A stretch of DNA of 56,083 bases from Atopococcus tabaci DSM 17538 (lineage in GTDB: Bacteria > Bacillota > Bacilli > Lactobacillales > Carnobacteriaceae_A). Position 1 is the stretch's first letter; each line of letters starts with the position of its first letter. The translations under genes were made by a program, and so were the position numbers. The DNA is taken from NCBI RefSeq assembly GCF_000429585.1, contig NZ_AUCD01000007.1:1-56083 (forward strand), in the 5' to 3' direction. The notes beneath the pieces were generated by a model that saw nothing but the letters and a program-made list of their open reading frames with translations, ran no database searches and was not told the DNA's origin. Of this stretch, positions 5,355 to 43,557 are shown piece by piece.

Positions 5355-5449
5355 AATTACCGCCTCCTCATCATTATAAGAAATAAATATTGGAGGCTGA
5401 TACGAAGCAAAAGGATTGTTCTAAAATATGCTCGGTATATTTCATTAGA

Positions 5450-8777: not shown

Positions 8778-8923
8778 AATCCATTTTCCCCCAAAAAATT
8801 GTTATAGGAGTATCATATCAGAAAAAACCGTTCAAAAAGAATCCTTGTCTCAAAAAACGGAAAAATTAAAAAAATTCCAAGAATGCCTCAAATTTATTCC
8901 ATCCGCTTTCTTTATAAATGAAA

Positions 8924-12278: not shown

Positions 12279-12321
12279 AAATGTATGGTAGTTCAACGTT
12301 TCACAATCAAAAACATAAACC

Positions 12322-12425
12322 ATCTGAACAGGCGGTGAATCCCGGAGATTCATGCAGCCGGGCCACCGGATGCGTGGCAGCAGAGTGATGCGGAAGGCAC
12401 ACCTGTGGGACAGTACTTACTGTTC
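12322..12425 (+). promoter_or_regulatory. NiCo (czcD-type) metal-sensing riboswitch aptamer
   Basis: The leader contains the conserved blocks of the czcD/NiCo motif in order: an AGGCGGTGA start with a short hairpin (TGAATCCCGGAGATTCA), then TGCAGCCGGGC, a second hairpin (GCCACCGGATGCGTGGC), a third around AGAGTGATGC, and the closing TGTGGGACAG. Outer pairing GAACAG (12326-12331) with CTGTTC (12420-12425) can close the junction. This class binds Co2+/Ni2+ and has also been reported to respond to Fe2+. It sits directly before a P1B-4 ATPase, the expected partner. The identification is from remembered consensus; a covariance-model search would settle it. Confidence 0.8.
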
Positions 12426-12443
12426 TATGGGTATGCCTTTTTT
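12396..12443 (+). terminator. Riboswitch expression platform: intrinsic terminator
   Basis: GGCACACC plus TGTGGGACAGTA can pair with TACTGTTCTATG plus GGTATGCC around a CT loop (several G:U pairs), followed by T6 at 12438-12443. The 5' arm of this stem is the 3' part of the aptamer, including the conserved GGGACAG. Metal-bound aptamer and terminator are therefore mutually exclusive, which predicts a metal-induced ON switch. Confidence 0.8.
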
Positions 12444-12467
12444 ACATATCAAAAGGGGAGATGCAAC

Positions 12468-14336
12468 ATGTTCACTTATTTGAGAACCACACGGCCGGGC
12501 CAATTCTTGGTCATCGGCATCCTGTTTACCATACTCGGGTTCGTAGCCGGCGGCATATACAGTCGCTTGGCGTTTTATGCAGCGATTTTTTTCTTGGGAT
12601 TCTTTGCAGCCAAGCAAGCCATGGTGGAGACAGTAACATCCAAATCGCCAAATGTAGATTTATTGATGATTTTGGCGGCTCTCGGCGCAGTCGTCATCAA
12701 CTATGAATCGGAAGGGGCTATGCTGCTGCTGATTTTTGCCGGGGCGGAATTTTTGGAGAACTTCGCCACCGACAAATCTACGAATGCCATCAAAGAGCTG
12801 ATGGCCCATGTCCCGTCTGTCGCCCAAGTCCTGCAGGCGAATGGCGAAGTGGTTGAAGTACCCACAGAGGAGTTGAAAATCGGGGACATTGCGGTGGTGT
12901 CCAAAGGAGCGCAAATTCCGATTGATGGCCTCATTGACCGGAAAACGCAAATCAATGAGGCTGCGTTGACGGGAGAATCGCTGCCGGTTGAGAAAACGGA
13001 AGGAGACGAAGTGTTTGCCGGAACGTTGAATGAAGGCAACGCATTTCATTTGACTGTCAACAAAACAAGCGATCAAACAGTGTTTTCGAATATCATCCGC
13101 ATGGTGGAAGAAGCTCAGAGCCGTCCTTCTAAAATTTCTAAATTCATCGACCGATTTGAAAAGCAATACGTGATCGGTGTGTTGATTGCGGTGCCGCTGT
13201 TTATTTTCGCTTTGTACTTCTTCAGCAATTTCGCGTTTGAAGATGCTTTTTACCGCGGAATGGTTCTGCTGACGGTAGCCAGCCCATGTGCATTGGTAGC
13301 TTCCGCCACCCCGGCTACGCTGAGCGCCATCAGCAACGGAGCGAAAAACGGGGTTTTGGTGAAAGGCGGCGCTGCCATGGAAGCTTTGGCCACAATGGAA
13401 ATATTGTACAGCGACAAGACCGGCACGCTCACTTTTGGAGATTTTCAGGTGATGGAATATCAGATACCTGAATCCGTCCTCCCGGAGGTGGTGTTCATGG
13501 AACAACAGTCCACGCATCCGATTGCCAGAGCGATTGTGCAACAGTTCAGTGACTTGAAGTTGGATGGTATCGATCAAACGGAACCGGTCGAAGAAATTCC
13601 GGGTTCCGGGTTAAAGAAAGGCGCCATCAAAGTGGGGAAACCTTCCGCCTTTGACGGTTTCCATGATGAACATCAGTACCGTAGCAAAACGACAGAAGAT
13701 CATACCACTGTTCTTGTGGCAGAGGGACAAAACATTGTAGGGTATATCGCTTTGAGTGATCAAATCCGTCCTGAAGCGATTGAGGCGGTTGACGGCTTTC
13801 AAGAAGAAGGCATTCAGGTAGAATTGTTGACCGGGGACAACCAAGCGGTGGCGGAAAAGGTGGCGGGTGAAGTAGGCGTGGATGCTTTTGCGGCCGCGTG
13901 TCTGCCCGAGGATAAAATCAACTTCATTTTACGAAGCCAAGAAGACGGGCAAGTTGTGGGGATGGTCGGAGATGGAATCAATGACGCGCCGGCGTTGGCC
14001 ACTGCTGACATCGGAGTGGCGATGGGCAGCGGCTCTTCGGTGGCGATGGAATCCGCGGATGTGGTCATCGTGAAAAATGATTTGATGAAGCTGCTTTACA
14101 GCTACCGTTTGAGTCATCGGTTGAACACCATCATCAAGCAAAATGTGGTTTTTGCCGTCGGGGTGATTGTCGTATTGATCGTGTTGAACCTTCTTGGGTA
14201 TTTGGATTTGCCGGCCGGCGTAGTGTTCCACGAAGGCTCGACCATTCTGGTGATTCTAAACGGGCTGCGCTTGTTGAGAATGGAGGACAAGTCGGCAGCG
14301 GCTCAACCCGCTGGAGAAAAGCCCGTACAAATTTGA
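12468..14336 (+). CDS. pfeT: P1B-4 metal-exporting ATPase (PfeT/CoaT-like; Fe(II)/Co/Ni efflux)
   Basis: 622 residues. A heavy-metal P-type ATPase without an N-terminal metal-binding domain. Motifs: TGES (168-171), ASPC with metal-site SPC (272-274), phosphorylation DKTGT (316-320), HP (350-351), GDGINDAP (501-508), and HEGST in the last membrane part (588-592). SPC plus HEGS(T) marks the P1B-4 class, which exports Fe2+, Co2+ and sometimes Ni2+/Zn2+. B. subtilis PfeT (formerly ZosA) belongs here. The NiCo riboswitch in the leader independently points to Co/Ni/Fe. Start ATG 12468 is preferred because AAAGGGGAG precedes it. An in-frame ATG 63 bp upstream would lie inside the riboswitch terminator. 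Confidence 0.9.
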   Translation: MFTYLRTTRPGQFLVIGILFTILGFVAGGIYSRLAFYAAIFFLGFFAAKQAMVETVTSKSPNVDLLMILAALGAVVINYESEGAMLLLIFAGAEFLENFATDKSTNAIKELMAHVPSVAQVLQANGEVVEVPTEELKIGDIAVVSKGAQIPIDGLIDRKTQINEAALTGESLPVEKTEGDEVFAGTLNEGNAFHLTVNKTSDQTVFSNIIRMVEEAQSRPSKISKFIDRFEKQYVIGVLIAVPLFIFALYFFSNFAFEDAFYRGMVLLTVASPCALVASATPATLSAISNGAKNGVLVKGGAAMEALATMEILYSDKTGTLTFGDFQVMEYQIPESVLPEVVFMEQQSTHPIARAIVQQFSDLKLDGIDQTEPVEEIPGSGLKKGAIKVGKPSAFDGFHDEHQYRSKTTEDHTTVLVAEGQNIVGYIALSDQIRPEAIEAVDGFQEEGIQVELLTGDNQAVAEKVAGEVGVDAFAAACLPEDKINFILRSQEDGQVVGMVGDGINDAPALATADIGVAMGSGSSVAMESADVVIVKNDLMKLLYSYRLSHRLNTIIKQNVVFAVGVIVVLIVLNLLGYLDLPAGVVFHEGSTILVILNGLRLLRMEDKSAAAQPAGEKPVQI

Positions 14337-14342
14337 ATAGAT

Positions 14343-14377
14343 AAAAACAAGGCCGAAAGTTAGGCCTTGTTTTTTTC
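14343..14377 (+). terminator. Intrinsic terminator after pfeT
   Basis: AAAAACAAGGCC pairs with GGCCTTGTTTTT around GAAAGTTA, followed by more T. It closes the metal-efflux unit. Confidence 0.88.
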
Positions 14378-14465: not shown

Positions 14466-14598
14466 ACAAAGAAAAAATGAGTTACAATTCTTTGGCAATG
14501 AGGACACTACTATTCAACAAAGAATCGCCCCAGTCTTATTTCTTTGTTGAAAACAGTCTCCCTATTTGACAAAGAAATCTGTTTCAAGAATTCTTTGT
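14466..14598. repeat. Intergenic alternating-hairpin cassette, locus A (word ACAAAGAA)
   Basis: The word ACAAAGAA occurs at 14466, 14517 and 14569. Its reverse complement TTCTTTG(T) occurs at 14488, 14540 and 14591. Unit period is 51 then 52 bp. Each pair can form a hairpin with a 14-15 nt loop, and neighbouring pairs can also fold with the alternative partner. Spacers between arms are not conserved inside this locus. It lies between the pfeT terminator and the promoter of the flavin cluster. The same word with the same 51/52 spacing recurs at 43424-43557. Confidence 0.8.
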
Positions 14599-14745: not shown

Positions 14746-14813
14746 CAAGATGCTTAGTAATGTGAATTCAGTAACATGAAAAGGGCTGTTAGTTGACGGA
14801 AGGCGGGTTGAGC

Positions 14814-15704
14814 GTGAACATTGAACGGTTTGTCGAAGCGCGCAAAGCTTTGGGCATGTCGCAAAGCGAATTAGCGGAAGACATTTGTACGCAGGCCACA
14901 TTGAGCCGTTTTGAAAACAACGGCAAAGTCCCCAATCTAAAAATCCTCATTCAACTTTGTAACCGGCTCAATTTGCCTCTGGGAGAGCTGTTTCCCCGGG
15001 TGGGAGTGAAATATTCAGAAACAATTGAAAAGATGAATCAAGTGGAGTTCTTCTTGATTACGAGTGAGTATACCCAAGCGGCTGAGCTGCTGCAGACTGT
15101 TTCTATCCCTGAAGTGGAGGAAGCCCGTCTTTCTATGCGGCACCATTACTTGAACGGTTATATCATGATTTTCCAAAACCGCCCGGTGACCGACATATTA
15201 TTTGTCTTTGACCAGATTTTGCTGGCGGAAGAAACTGAAGAAGCGAAGATTTTCCGGTTGCTCGCTTATACCGGGATCGGCATGGTGTATTCACGGGAAG
15301 GAGACCAAGAAAAAGCGGAGTTTTACTTCAACCGCGTGTTGGAAAAGATTTATAGTTACCCCACAGTCACACTTGAGGATACATGGCGTGTGTTGAATAT
15401 TGTGTTTCAGTGCGGAGTGTTTTATTCGACCATTGAAGAGTTGGACGTCAGCAATGCATTGTTGAAATATGCCGTCTCTATTTGCTCAGATAATCACGTG
15501 ACGTATTACCTTGCCCGGGCTGCTATTCAATTAGCAAAAAATGCCATCCGTCAAAGAAAATCGAAAGAAACCATCTTGGAACTTATCTATGACGCCCGCG
15601 CGTATTCCAAAATCAATCGAAACCAAGTTGCGTTGAGCGAGCTGGCTGCTCTGGAAGAACAAGTCACATCAGGTGCGTCAAAGGTTGAAAAAAGGGAGGA
15701 TTGA
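14814..15704 (+). CDS. HTH (XRE)-TPR transcriptional regulator, Rgg/PlcR-like
   Basis: 296 residues from GTG 14814. An N-terminal Cro/C1-type helix-turn-helix (MSQSELAEDICTQATLSRFE, then KVPNLKILIQLCNRL, about 15-60) is followed by a helical repeat domain of TPR type (about 75-280), the layout of Rgg/MutR and PlcR-family regulators that usually bind short peptides. No small peptide gene is seen next to it. It is the first gene of the flavin cluster, overlapping the ApbE start region, and probably controls it. GTG 14814 has GGAAGGCGGG upstream. A TTG 21 bp earlier is an alternative start. Confidence 0.82.
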   Translation: MNIERFVEARKALGMSQSELAEDICTQATLSRFENNGKVPNLKILIQLCNRLNLPLGELFPRVGVKYSETIEKMNQVEFFLITSEYTQAAELLQTVSIPEVEEARLSMRHHYLNGYIMIFQNRPVTDILFVFDQILLAEETEEAKIFRLLAYTGIGMVYSREGDQEKAEFYFNRVLEKIYSYPTVTLEDTWRVLNIVFQCGVFYSTIEELDVSNALLKYAVSICSDNHVTYYLARAAIQLAKNAIRQRKSKETILELIYDARAYSKINRNQVALSELAALEEQVTSGASKVEKRED

Positions 15705-15706
15705 AT

Positions 15707-16639
15707 GTGGACACTAAAAGAGAATCCATCCGCTTGATGGGGACCATCATTGATTTGGTGATCGAACATCCGTCCGCGGATGCAGTGATGGCGGAAGTCA
15801 TTCACCGTCTGCGGGAGTACGAGCACCGGTTCAGTGCCAACAGTCCGGATTCGGAGTTGATGGCGGTCAATAAACAGGCCGGGATCAAACCGGTGAAGGT
15901 CCATCCGGAATTGTACCACTTGATTGAAGTGGGAAAACACCACAGCTGCGCTCCCGACAGCAACTTGAACATCGCCATCGGTCCGTTGGTACAGACGTGG
16001 CGGATTGGGTTCAAAGATGCGAAAGTCCCGACTTCCGAAGAGATTGACCGTCTCCTCCAGAAGACAAACCCGCAGAAGATTCGGTTGGACGACGAAGAAC
16101 AAAGCGTGTACTTGGAAGATACGGGAATGTCGATTGATTTAGGTTCGCTGGCGAAAGGTTACATAGCGGATTTGATTGTGGCGTATTTGAAGAGCGAAGG
16201 GGTCGAATCGGCACTGCTCAATCTGGGCGGAAACATTCTTGGTTTGGGCCCTCCCAAGGACCGGAAGAAAAATCACTGGACGATTGGGATTCAACATCCG
16301 CTGTCTCCTAGGAGCCATTACGTGGCGGCTTTGAAGGTGGCGGACCAGTCAGTTGTGACTTCAGGCATTTATGAACGAAGCTTGGAAAAAGAAGGACGGA
16401 CGTACCATCATATTTTGGACCCTCACACGGGTTATCCCACCTCCACCGATGTTGCCAGCTTGACAATTCATTCCAAACGGTCAGTGGATGGAGAAATATG
16501 GACCACGCGTCTGTACGGAAAAACTTCAGAAGAAGTGATTGATGCGTTGAATCGGCTCGAAGGAATCGAAGGACTGGTTCTTACGAAAGACGGACAGATG
16601 CTGTATTCAAAAGGATTAGAAGAAAACATCATTAAGTGA
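15707..16639 (+). CDS. apbE: FAD:protein FMN transferase (ApbE), cytoplasmic type
   Basis: 310 residues. ApbE cleaves FAD and links FMN covalently to a Thr/Ser in target proteins. Family segments: FSANSPDSELMAVNKQAG near the N-terminus, IDLGSLAKGYIADLIVAYLK and LLNLGGNILGLG in the middle, then VVTSGIYERS and the HHILDPHTGYPTS stretch. The late family motif (usually DALSTALFVLG) is altered to VDGEIWTTRLYG. There is no signal peptide or lipobox, so it acts in the cytoplasm, unlike the lipoprotein ApbEs used for extracellular electron transfer. Start GTG 15707 is preferred (AGGGAGG nine bases upstream); TTG 15701 is in frame but too close to it. The only visible candidate target is the protein at 17300. 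Confidence 0.9.
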   Translation: MDTKRESIRLMGTIIDLVIEHPSADAVMAEVIHRLREYEHRFSANSPDSELMAVNKQAGIKPVKVHPELYHLIEVGKHHSCAPDSNLNIAIGPLVQTWRIGFKDAKVPTSEEIDRLLQKTNPQKIRLDDEEQSVYLEDTGMSIDLGSLAKGYIADLIVAYLKSEGVESALLNLGGNILGLGPPKDRKKNHWTIGIQHPLSPRSHYVAALKVADQSVVTSGIYERSLEKEGRTYHHILDPHTGYPTSTDVASLTIHSKRSVDGEIWTTRLYGKTSEEVIDALNRLEGIEGLVLTKDGQMLYSKGLEENIIK

Positions 16640-16658
16640 ATGGGAAGGAAGTAAGCAC

Positions 16659-17267
16659 ATGAAAAAATTTGTTGGACTCGTAGGCACGAATTCAGAACAA
16701 TCAACAAACCGGATGTTGCTGCAGTACATGAAGCACCATTTCTCCGGTGAAGCAGACATTGAAGTGGTCGAAATCAAGGACATTCCGGTATTCAACAAGC
16801 CGGAAGACAAACAAATTCCCGAAGAAGTCCAGGTCATCGCGGATAAAATCGAAGCCGCCGACGGGGTCATCATCAGTACGCCGGAATACGACCATGCCGT
16901 TCCTGCAGCATTGATCAACGCGTTGAACTGGTTGTCGTACGGCATCTATCCGTTTGTGGACAAACCGGTGATGATTACCGGGGCGTCGTACGGCACGTTG
17001 GGGTCATCCCGGGCACAGGCACACTTGCGTCAAATTTTGGATGCCCCCGAATTGAAAGCCCGCATCATGCCAAGCTCAGAATTTTTGTTGAGCCATTCGC
17101 TCCAAGCGTTTGACGAAGATGTCAACTTGAAAGACCAAGAACAGGTGGACAAGTTGGACGGATTGTTCAAAGATTTCTTGACCTTTGTTGCCATCACAAA
17201 CCAAATGAACCACAACCATGAACAAAATAAAAAAGACGCCGCAAACTTTTCTTGGGAAGCAAACTAA
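16659..17267 (+). CDS. NAD(P)H-dependent FMN reductase (flavodoxin-like)
   Basis: 202 residues with the FMN_red fold. Visible are [20 protein letters not shown] (phosphate-binding loop), [21 protein letters not shown] and [20 protein letters not shown]. The family reduces FMN, quinones or azo compounds using NAD(P)H. It lies 19 bp after apbE and 32 bp before a paralogue sharing the same N-terminal domain, which points to one operon and probable hetero-association or electron transfer between the two. The tail ([17 protein letters not shown]) has no flavinylation motif. Start ATG has GGAAGG upstream. Confidence 0.88.
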
Positions 17268-18571: not shown

Positions 18572-18588
18572 CGTGTGTCCATCCGATG

Positions 18589-18730
18589 GGACCAAATTTT
18601 TCATGAGAAATTTTCAGATTTGGGCTTGTTTCACCGGAAGTGACCAAATCTTCCAGAGAAATACAAGCGATTTGGACCTTCCACCGGTTATTGGACCAAA
18701 TCCTCTCGAAATACTCGTTTTATTTGGTCC
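18589..18730. repeat. Intergenic alternating-hairpin cassette, locus C (word GACCAAAT)
   Basis: GACCAAAT starts at 18590, 18642 and 18694, exactly 52 bp apart. The reverse word ATTTGG(N)C starts at 18618, 18670 and 18722, also exactly 52 bp apart. Between them are weaker conserved cores: GAAAT in one half-unit and TTCACCGG/TCCACCGG in the other. Forward and reverse arms alternate almost evenly (28/24 bp), so either neighbour can be the pairing partner. It sits between the flavin-cluster terminator and the truncated pseudouridine synthase gene. Confidence 0.85.
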
Positions 18731-18838
18731 GATTCCGCTCTTCTAAACTTAAAAGAAAAATTTAAAGATATGTGGCATAATGTTGTAAGATGATTAGTGA
18801 AATGGAAACCAGATTAGTAGATTAAAAGGAGAAGAGGA

Positions 18839-21431: not shown

Positions 21432-21627
21432 GTGGGTGAAAGGCGGAGTATTTCGTTTGAGAGGCCTTTTCGATGGAAATAATGAGAGAAAAGACAAACT
21501 ATTTCCATTGAGAAGCCGTCTCGAAGCAGATAAGTGGAAAAATTCATCAGTAATTCACTTGAGAACGCTTCTCAAGTGAATTACTGGGTGAGGTTGCAAA
21601 ATAACTGAGTTGAGAACGGGAGAAAGG
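21424..21627. repeat. Intergenic 51-bp tandem cassette, locus D (core TTGAGA)
   Basis: TTGAGA occurs at 21457, 21508, 21559 and 21610, exactly 51 bp apart. Unit starts are 21449 (TATTTCG), 21500 (TATTTCC), 21551 (TAATTCAC) and 21602 (TAACTGAG). GCAGATAAGTGG occurs at 21424 and 21526, 102 bp apart. Arms pair within units: TATTTC with GAAATA, and in the third unit a perfect 17-bp stem AGTAATTCACTTGAGAA with its complement around CGC. The arm sequence changes from unit to unit while complementarity is kept. It lies between two convergent genes. Confidence 0.85.
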
Positions 21628-25982: not shown

Positions 25983-26065
25983 AGTGCAAGAGCAGGACAA
26001 TTGTCCCAATTTCTATCTATTCATCAACAGAGTATCCACCAAAGAACGAATGATGAACCCATGCT

Positions 26066-26135
26066 GATCTAATAGTCGGACGTTTACGGTGTCCGGTAGA
26101 AACTTCTAGCCCATATCGCTAAATTATATTAGATC
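26066..26135 (-). promoter_or_regulatory. Purine (guanine-class) riboswitch aptamer
   Basis: On the minus strand the aptamer starts and ends with the P1 pairing GATCTAAT / ATTAGATC. It contains the conserved purine-riboswitch blocks TATAATTTAGCGATATGG, AGAAGTTTCTACCGGACACC, GTAAACGTCC and GACTA. The base before GACTA is C, which sets guanine/hypoxanthine/xanthine rather than adenine specificity. The loop pair GGC..AGA/CCGTAAA kissing interaction is conserved. Confidence 0.93.
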
Positions 26136-26152
26136 CTTGTTCAGTTGCTTTC

Positions 26153-35861: not shown

Positions 35862-36002
35862 CACTCTTCCATGAGCACGGCTTTGACGAAAGAGTGGAGT
35901 GGGTTTTCTTCTGTACTCTTTCATCAAATATGGTTTCACGAAAGAGTGAATTGTTTAATGACTTCTCACTTCCTCATGGGCAAAAGGTTCACGGAAAAGT
36001 GA
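35862..36002. repeat. Intergenic alternating-hairpin cassette, locus E (word ACTCTT / GAAAGAGT)
   Basis: Left arms CACTCTTCC, TACTCTTTC and TCACTTCC have their AC at 35863, 35915 and 35968 (52, 53 bp apart). Right arms ACGAAAGAGTG, ACGAAAGAGTG and ACGGAAAAGTGA start at 35886, 35938 and 35991 (52, 53 bp). In the third unit both arms change together (CTCACTTCC with GGAAAAGTGAG), so pairing is kept. A core CATGAGCACGGCTTTGACGA / CATCAAATATGGTTTCACGA is partly conserved inside the loops. It lies between the tre terminator and two small genes. Confidence 0.82.
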
Positions 36003-43389: not shown

Positions 43390-43423
43390 GTGTGATACAA
43401 GCGGGTAAGGGAGCGGCTCTCCG

Positions 43424-43557
43424 ACAAAGAATGTGCAAAATAAAGTTCTTTGTCGAATAGAGGGCTTTTCTTCCACAAAGAAGTCCTCGTTTTCCAAATC
43501 TTTGTCGTAGAGAAGCGAGCTCTCCAACAAAGAAACCCAAAAACGGATATTCTTTGT
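43424..43557. repeat. Intergenic alternating-hairpin cassette, locus B (word ACAAAGAA)
   Basis: ACAAAGAA at 43424, 43475 and 43527; TTCTTTGT at 43446 and 43550, with the variant ATCTTTGT at 43498. Unit spacing is 51 then 52 bp, identical to locus A. The sequence between a right arm and the next left arm is itself partly conserved (TCGAATAGAGGGCTTTTCTTCC, TCGTAGAGAAGC...GCTCTCC, and GAGCGGCTCTCC before the first unit) and can fold as an inner hairpin, like the TTGAGAAGCC core of locus D. It lies between the thiolase terminator and the FGGY-kinase terminator. Confidence 0.85.

Follow-up and report, generated by a model that had tools for sequence, protein, structure and literature searches.

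The window analysed here is the whole 56,083-bp stretch of contig NZ_AUCD01000007.1 of Atopococcus tabaci DSM 17538. It contains five intergenic arrays, A to E, in which a short word alternates with its complement (Table 1). In array A, the word ACAAAGAA starts at 14466, 14517 and 14569 and the complement TTCTTTGT at 14540 and 14591, in agreement with the original prediction of three hairpins with a 51/52-bp period, except that the arm at 14488 is TTCTTTGG, a 7/8 match to the complement with a single mismatch. Arrays B, C, D and E were found to follow the same plan, with different words in C, D and E, as had also been predicted. Array B is flanked by convergent genes for a thiolase (+) and an FGGY kinase (-). 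A scan of the window for six arms at a period of 51-53 bp, with a maximum score of 40, gave scores of 39, 39, 38, 34 and 32 for arrays A, B, C, D and E, respectively; when the window sequence was Markov-shuffled five times, the same scan gave best scores of 27-28.

Table 1 Features of the window (NZ_AUCD01000007.1) and NERD genes of the A. tabaci genome (G000, contig handle and position).
Feature	Position	Strand	Remarks
Array A	14466..14598	.	six ACAAAGAA arms, alternating orientation, period 51/52
Array B	43422..43557 (locus at 43424)	.	six ACAAAGAA arms, three units
Array C	18588..18731 (locus at 18590)	.	six GACCAAAT arms
Array D	35862..36001	.	six arms, CACTYTTNCRTGA type / CACTCTTCCATGA-like; two of six diverged
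Array E	21447..21585	.	AGTAATTCACTTGAGA-type arms, three units; last unit a near-perfect palindrome
P-type ATPase gene	12405..14336	+	upstream of array A
Terminator-like hairpin and T run	14343..14376	+	between the P-type ATPase gene and array A; by eye
HTH_3/TPR regulator gene	14793..15704	+	downstream of array A; neighbour only
HTH/TPR regulator, ApbE and FMN reductase genes	14793-17267		in a row
NiCo riboswitch	12314-12415		before the P-type ATPase gene; Rfam search
Purine riboswitch	26053-26151	-	Rfam search
NERD gene	G000:C10:600-1487		broken by two TGA; ACAAAGAA array on each side
NERD gene	G000:C3:492-1394		intact; CCAAAT arrays both sides, the 3' one seen by eye only
NERD gene	G000:C3:18724-19626		intact; CACTTTTACGTGAA at 3' end
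NERD gene	G000:C10:33130		TGCGTGGAGTG array on each side
NERD gene	G000:C54:7013		two arrays of GAGTTGnGGnCA word at 3' end

An Rfam search of the window at gathering scores returned two matches, both riboswitches and neither located at an array. Of the 15 loci found with the regulator, 12, in Desemzia, Amphibacillus, Oceanobacillus and others, are 61-79% identical. A reading of the arrays as operators of the neighbouring HTH gene was dropped because this class of array sits mostly at gene 3' ends.

Arrays across the A. tabaci genome

A genome scan for alternating arrays had been set beforehand as a test of the original prediction, and its outcome was positive. The scan covered 809,818 bp in 41 stretches, the window included, or 36% of the genome. 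It returned 48 arrays with a score of at least 35 out of a maximum of 50, compared with none in one block shuffle of the same sequence and one each at control periods of 60-64 and 40-44. Four arrays were dropped by eye (two coding repeats and two weak low-complexity hits), and the 44 arrays that were kept fell, by eye, into more than ten word classes. Class logos, built from sites found via a 5-6 bp core, gave the words TCTnnnGACAAAGAA (51 sites in 8 arrays), GGnCCAAAT (43 sites), CTATnTcAAACTCA and CACTtTTnCgTGAA, with less than 0.5 bit in most loop and spacer columns. In the whole genome, the pattern ACAAAGAA-N10..20-TTCTTTGT occurred 13 times and the reversed pattern did not occur; all 13 pairs had 14-15 bp between the arms. 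At locus L064 (7341-7650), an array was seen by eye to switch word in register, with three GATTCCAACTC units followed by two ATCGACCACTC units. Tandem repeats of 51-52 bp that are possibly coding, in five to seven copies, were observed in two relatives (L083 17915, L084 6842, L085 10857 and L094 2726).

The arrays proved to be intergenic, with a conserved period and varied words on one plan, as originally described. Among the 44 arrays, 22 were located between convergent genes, 17 between tandem genes, with one further tandem case overlapping a called gene, one between divergent genes and three at the edge of a stretch. Of the tandem arrays, 13/17 lay closer to where the upstream gene ends than to where the next one starts. 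The background of spacers of at least 150 bp, which comes from a simple gene caller and is biased because arrays lengthen their own spacers, comprised 32 convergent, 124 tandem and 55 divergent spacers. Relative to this background, the 22 convergent versus 18 other placements among the 40 arrays used gave a Fisher p of 7e-12, with overlapping and edge cases left out and two spacers with two arrays each counted twice.

The original prediction suggested that structure is either selected or copied, and selection of the hairpin was not borne out. Arm agreement was 0.752 within hairpins and 0.742 between hairpins in the 44 A. tabaci arrays, and 0.814 and 0.807, respectively, in 29 Desemzia arrays. 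Since mates were no more alike than non-mates, it is the word that is conserved and not the pairing, and selection on a hairpin or RNA was rejected on this comparison. The sequences show conserved words without hairpin covariation. The alternative suggestion of a gene-conversion-like copying process stood in part. Copying of whole 52-bp units was visible by eye in places (e.g. unit 3 at 5400 and unit 2 at 8909 of locus L016), but the same word also occurs at distant loci with unrelated spacers, which points to a trans-acting reader of the word, an idea absent from the original prediction.

NERD-domain genes as partners of the arrays

Clustering of the predicted proteins led to a NERD-domain family as the partner of the arrays. 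Five NERD copies were found in A. tabaci, all of which adjoin arrays of one word each, three of them on both flanks. Array A is assigned to the class of the broken gene on contig C10 because that gene sits between ACAAAGAA arrays; the gene carries two TGA codons, yet the ACAAAGAA arrays look well kept. The words of arrays C and D are in the classes of the two intact genes on contig C3, at 492 and 18724, respectively, and no NERD gene with the word of array E was found. Overall, 29 of the 44 A. tabaci arrays match the word classes of the five NERD genes (8, 8, 6, 5 and 2 arrays, the 5 via a loose pattern), while 15, including array E, match no NERD gene's word. The ACAAAGAA palindrome, present 13 times in A. 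tabaci, gave one or two matches in 4 of 59 other genomes, with a maximum of two.

All five A. tabaci genes score over the PF08378 (NERD) cut-off of 22.1 bits, and the matches in 3 of 3 proteins had 47-53 bits (E 3e-12 to 6e-14). The family proteins, about 300 aa long, consist of a nuclease-related domain, a zinc-ribbon-like part with four cysteines, and a C-terminal region. Residues were counted in the 77 of 83 proteins of at least 260 aa: E42, D74 and K89 were present in 77/77, as was E or D at position 87, and the four cysteine positions were occupied in 77, 76, 77 and 77 proteins, the lone exception being a histidine. We take the conserved acidic residues and the lysine to form a PD-(D/E)XK site; to our knowledge, NERD proteins have little assigned function. 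Defence models gave no full-length match to four NERD proteins, only weak partial matches to PglW, MkoA, PDC-M16A and MADS6 (best E 1.5e-5). One NERD protein (P0003) had no tblastn match in plasmids and phages, one (A1) had no match in viral contigs, and matches to solved structures were weak and meaningless.

A profile built from four NERD copies detected the family in 61/295 genomes of the order, in 70/398 genomes of the class (E<=1e-15) and, at a stricter E<=1e-40, in 4/398 genomes of a phylum sample, with the A. tabaci genome counted each time. Several NERD copies contain in-frame stops. At 57 NERD loci, two duplicates included, we found 116 arrays compared with 4 in one shuffle, and 51 of these loci had at least one array; all 16 of the best loci from other Bacilli families (L180-L195) had arrays of 51-54 bp. 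In the set of 83 NERD loci from Bacilli that was obtained after removal of 2 duplicates, with an array threshold score of 36, an array was present 3' of 67 genes and 5' of 30; arrays stood on both sides of 22 genes and on neither side of 8, which amounts to 75/83 with an array on at least one side and 16/83 with no 3' array at threshold. The loci with an array on neither side were L125, L145, L147, L148, L174, L176, L178 and L205, of which L125 has arrays visible at a lower score or by eye.

The 83 loci contained 161 arrays, compared with 0, 0 and 2 in three shuffles; at control periods of 45-48, 56-60 and 66-69, the real loci yielded a single array, and none of the genes had one on its 3' side. 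By region, arrays numbered 107 in 56.9 kb of 3' sequence and 45 in 57.8 kb of 5' sequence, with none inside the gene and 9 in 126 kb further off. The 5' and 3' words of one locus had a similarity of 6.75, versus 2.84 for other loci. The word was shared (above the 95th percentile) in 20 of the 22 both-flank loci; the two exceptions, L198 and L200, had AT-rich 5' matches with a word unlike the 3' word. Judged by these scans, most NERD genes of the family carry one-word phased arrays 3', and some also 5'. A word was readable for 72 of the 77 long NERD proteins. Word similarity increased with protein identity, being 2.8 at less than 40% and 5.4-5.7 at more than 60% (26 pairs), with a correlation that is weak overall (rho 0.129; 6/2000 permutations as high) and that partly reflects common descent.

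A motif like TTTTTGCGTATCTT was shared upstream of NERD genes with different array words (L124, L126, L056 and L016). A loose pattern of this type matched 21/83 loci, with some matches inside array words, and TTTGCGT was present in 14/83 NERD upstream regions versus 1/82 control regions.

When the period was left free from 30 to 86 bp (85 loci, maximum score 50), 66 loci reached a score of at least 40, and none did so in one shuffle. The best periods were 40-42 bp (4 loci), 50-53 bp (55), 61-63 bp (4) and 81-83 bp (3), the last of which is perhaps twice 41. Single loci also reached at least 40 at periods of 77-78 and 84 bp, and a score of 40 was reached by none of the 85 loci at periods of 30-39, 43-48, 54-60 and 64-76 bp. 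One turn of B-DNA is about 10.4 bp, and by this spacing of the sequence periods those near 41, 52 and 62 bp are 4, 5 and 6 turns. Since the periods step by a B-DNA turn, the reader would most simply be a protein on duplex DNA. Among more remote NERD genes, arrays of about 41 bp were observed at L160, L166, L170, L196-L198, L202, L206 and L207, and arrays of about 62 bp instead of 52 at L200, L201, L203 and L204.

The other genomes covered include Desemzia sp. RIT 804 (G060), D. incerta (G061) and Marinilactibacillus piezotolerans (G062). Dispersed copies of a gene's word were looked for in three genomes, A. tabaci included, and occur elsewhere in all three, in A. tabaci mainly just past gene 3' ends. 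The GGAACGCA palindrome was found 14 times in RIT 804 and once in D. incerta, and GGCCATGAG 11 times in D. incerta and not in RIT 804; for these two words in the two Desemzia genomes, word abundance tracks the presence of the NERD gene. The syntenic comparison that the original prediction had proposed revealed presence or absence and word change at a few Desemzia loci. At one syntenic locus, RIT 804 has an array-NERD-array arrangement with GGAACGCA and D. incerta an array-NERD-arrays arrangement with GGCCATGAG, with NERD proteins that are 44% identical. The NERD proteins of a second locus share 71% identity, and there the words, read by eye, differ in part (approximately CTAATCGACA versus CTACTTCACA). 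Of four syntenic gaps, two had an array in a single species each (RIT 804 in one gap, D. incerta in the other), one had no array in either, and in the fourth a 41-bp tandem repeat of RIT 804 stood opposite three arrays of D. incerta. L108:6010 and L113:11708 were rejected as orthologous, as they have a 167-bp element in common and different flanks. The empty-site alignment of L030 and L031 was of poor quality, with element ends not visible. A higher-order repetition was seen in D. incerta, where complete arrays of three hairpins recur at superperiods of about 225-269 bp (L113 5285-5900 and 18496-19190; L115 14976-15950).

Interpretation of the arrays

From sequence comparison, the cassettes are probably target arrays of chromosomal NERD-domain proteins, with gene and dispersed arrays acting like RAYT and REP/BIME but with a different enzyme. 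The NERD protein would form a regular oligomer on duplex DNA through cooperative binding to the alternating words of an array, and its nuclease activity may help to copy or insert arrays and so take part in their spreading. In a stronger form, which we put forward tentatively and rate at somewhat below an even chance, this would be a self-spreading gene-and-target system. A PD-(D/E)XK-type NERD nuclease would polymerise on its own phased array, cut and copy arrays into gene 3' ends and co-evolve with the word, with several such systems per genome and sister species switching words at the same locus. Since Y1 transposase genes are present in A. tabaci, mobilisation by another enzyme is also possible.

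The main rival, rather unlikely in our judgement, is that the arrays are sites serving the host, with NERD as an architectural or regulatory DNA-binding protein, arrays that function at gene 3' ends as supercoil sinks or roadblocks, and spreading that is incidental. The excess between convergent genes is in line with this, as is the conservation of the arms where loops and spacers drop to background. Nine RIT 804 copies that align over at least 175 bp agree at 0.919 in the arms and 0.795 in the other element columns, versus 0.365 in the flanks. However, a family present in only 70 of the 398 class genomes, with in-frame stops in several copies and with a word and array set that differ between two congeners, argues against a host function.

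REP/BIME elements of the ordinary type, mobilised by a Y1 (RAYT or IS200) transposase, would also appear as alternating inverted repeats at gene 3' ends, and Y1_Tnp matches, four of them partial, occur at 5 places in the A. tabaci genome. This explanation is nevertheless improbable, as the word-flanked gene found is NERD, and in A. tabaci, the genome in which Y1 was sought, the sole full-length Y1 gene (C2:52147) has its nearest array about 1.6 kb away. Structured RNA or cruciform elements, with hairpins under selection, would account for the inverted arms, some of which are long, as in the third unit of array E. We consider them very improbable given that mates are no more alike than non-mates, and given the period quantised in steps of about 10.4 bp, which is a property of B-DNA, and the lack of an Rfam match at any array in the window. 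Neutral minisatellites with chance inverted matches are scarcely credible as a general explanation, for although tandem identity reaches 0.99 in some arrays, whose units are thus nearly the same, and 7 of 71 single arrays could be of this kind, 64/71 arrays, and 35/35 of those with low identity, exceeded all 30 versions per array in which the unit columns were permuted with tandem identity kept, so that a tandem-repeat artefact is ruled out for the 64 and not for the 7, and the control periods yielded one array versus 161.

Comparison with known systems

The original prediction knew of no named family of this description, and our literature search, limited in extent, likewise found none. No link between a NERD protein and a repeat array was found among the matches listed in the open literature searched, nor was a paper with both RAYT and NERD, and the parts available of PMC2817692, PMC3116915, PMC3049150, PMC3733652, PMC2267715, PMC6563490 and PMC11407518 contain no such link. 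On this limited open-literature search, as distinct from the whole literature, the gene-plus-repeat system is apparently undescribed. It would supply a large group of Bacilli intergenic repeats with a partner gene, a geometry and a mechanism open to testing, and would place NERD proteins in a genomic context. The 72 protein-array pairs with a readable word are material for studying how a protein family changes its DNA specificity.

The arrays resemble MITEs in being short, non-coding, dispersed copies whose presence varies between congeners at a few loci. They differ from MITEs in their internal phased words and in a partner gene that is not a known transposase; the element ends, with any terminal inverted repeats or target duplication, are indistinct in the nine-copy RIT 804 alignment. 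The BOX elements of pneumococcus, also from Lactobacillales, are likewise small, intergenic and built of modules that include tandem units, according to the portion of PMC3049150 available. In contrast to the arrays, the boxA, boxB and boxC sequences of BOX are fixed, with a predicted RNA fold, and that portion reports no gene with its own word (PMC3049150).

The closest likeness is to REP/BIME-RAYT (REPINs). REP/RAYT is described as a chromosomal gene beside its own repeats, with words that are dispersed extragenically in alternating orientation, are abundant where the gene is present and change together with it (PMC2817692, PMC3116915). Here too a NERD gene stands beside its own repeats, with dispersed alternating words whose abundance follows the gene and which change along with it. 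However, the partner is a NERD protein with four conserved cysteines and not a Y1 tyrosine transposase (IS200/IS605-like). Each REP is a small palindrome, whereas the words examined here, such as ACAAAGAA and CCAAAT, are not palindromes and their mates lack covariation. The arrays here are also phased at 4, 5 or 6 turns. A less clear-cut difference lies in the flanks: cognate repeats would be expected on both sides of every RAYT gene, and here 22/83 loci have arrays on both sides and 75/83 on at least one at a score of 36. Because the enzyme belongs to another class and the words examined are not REP-like palindromes, the NERD genes and their arrays would be a separate kind of system that works like REP/RAYT, apparently an independent counterpart with unrelated chemistry.
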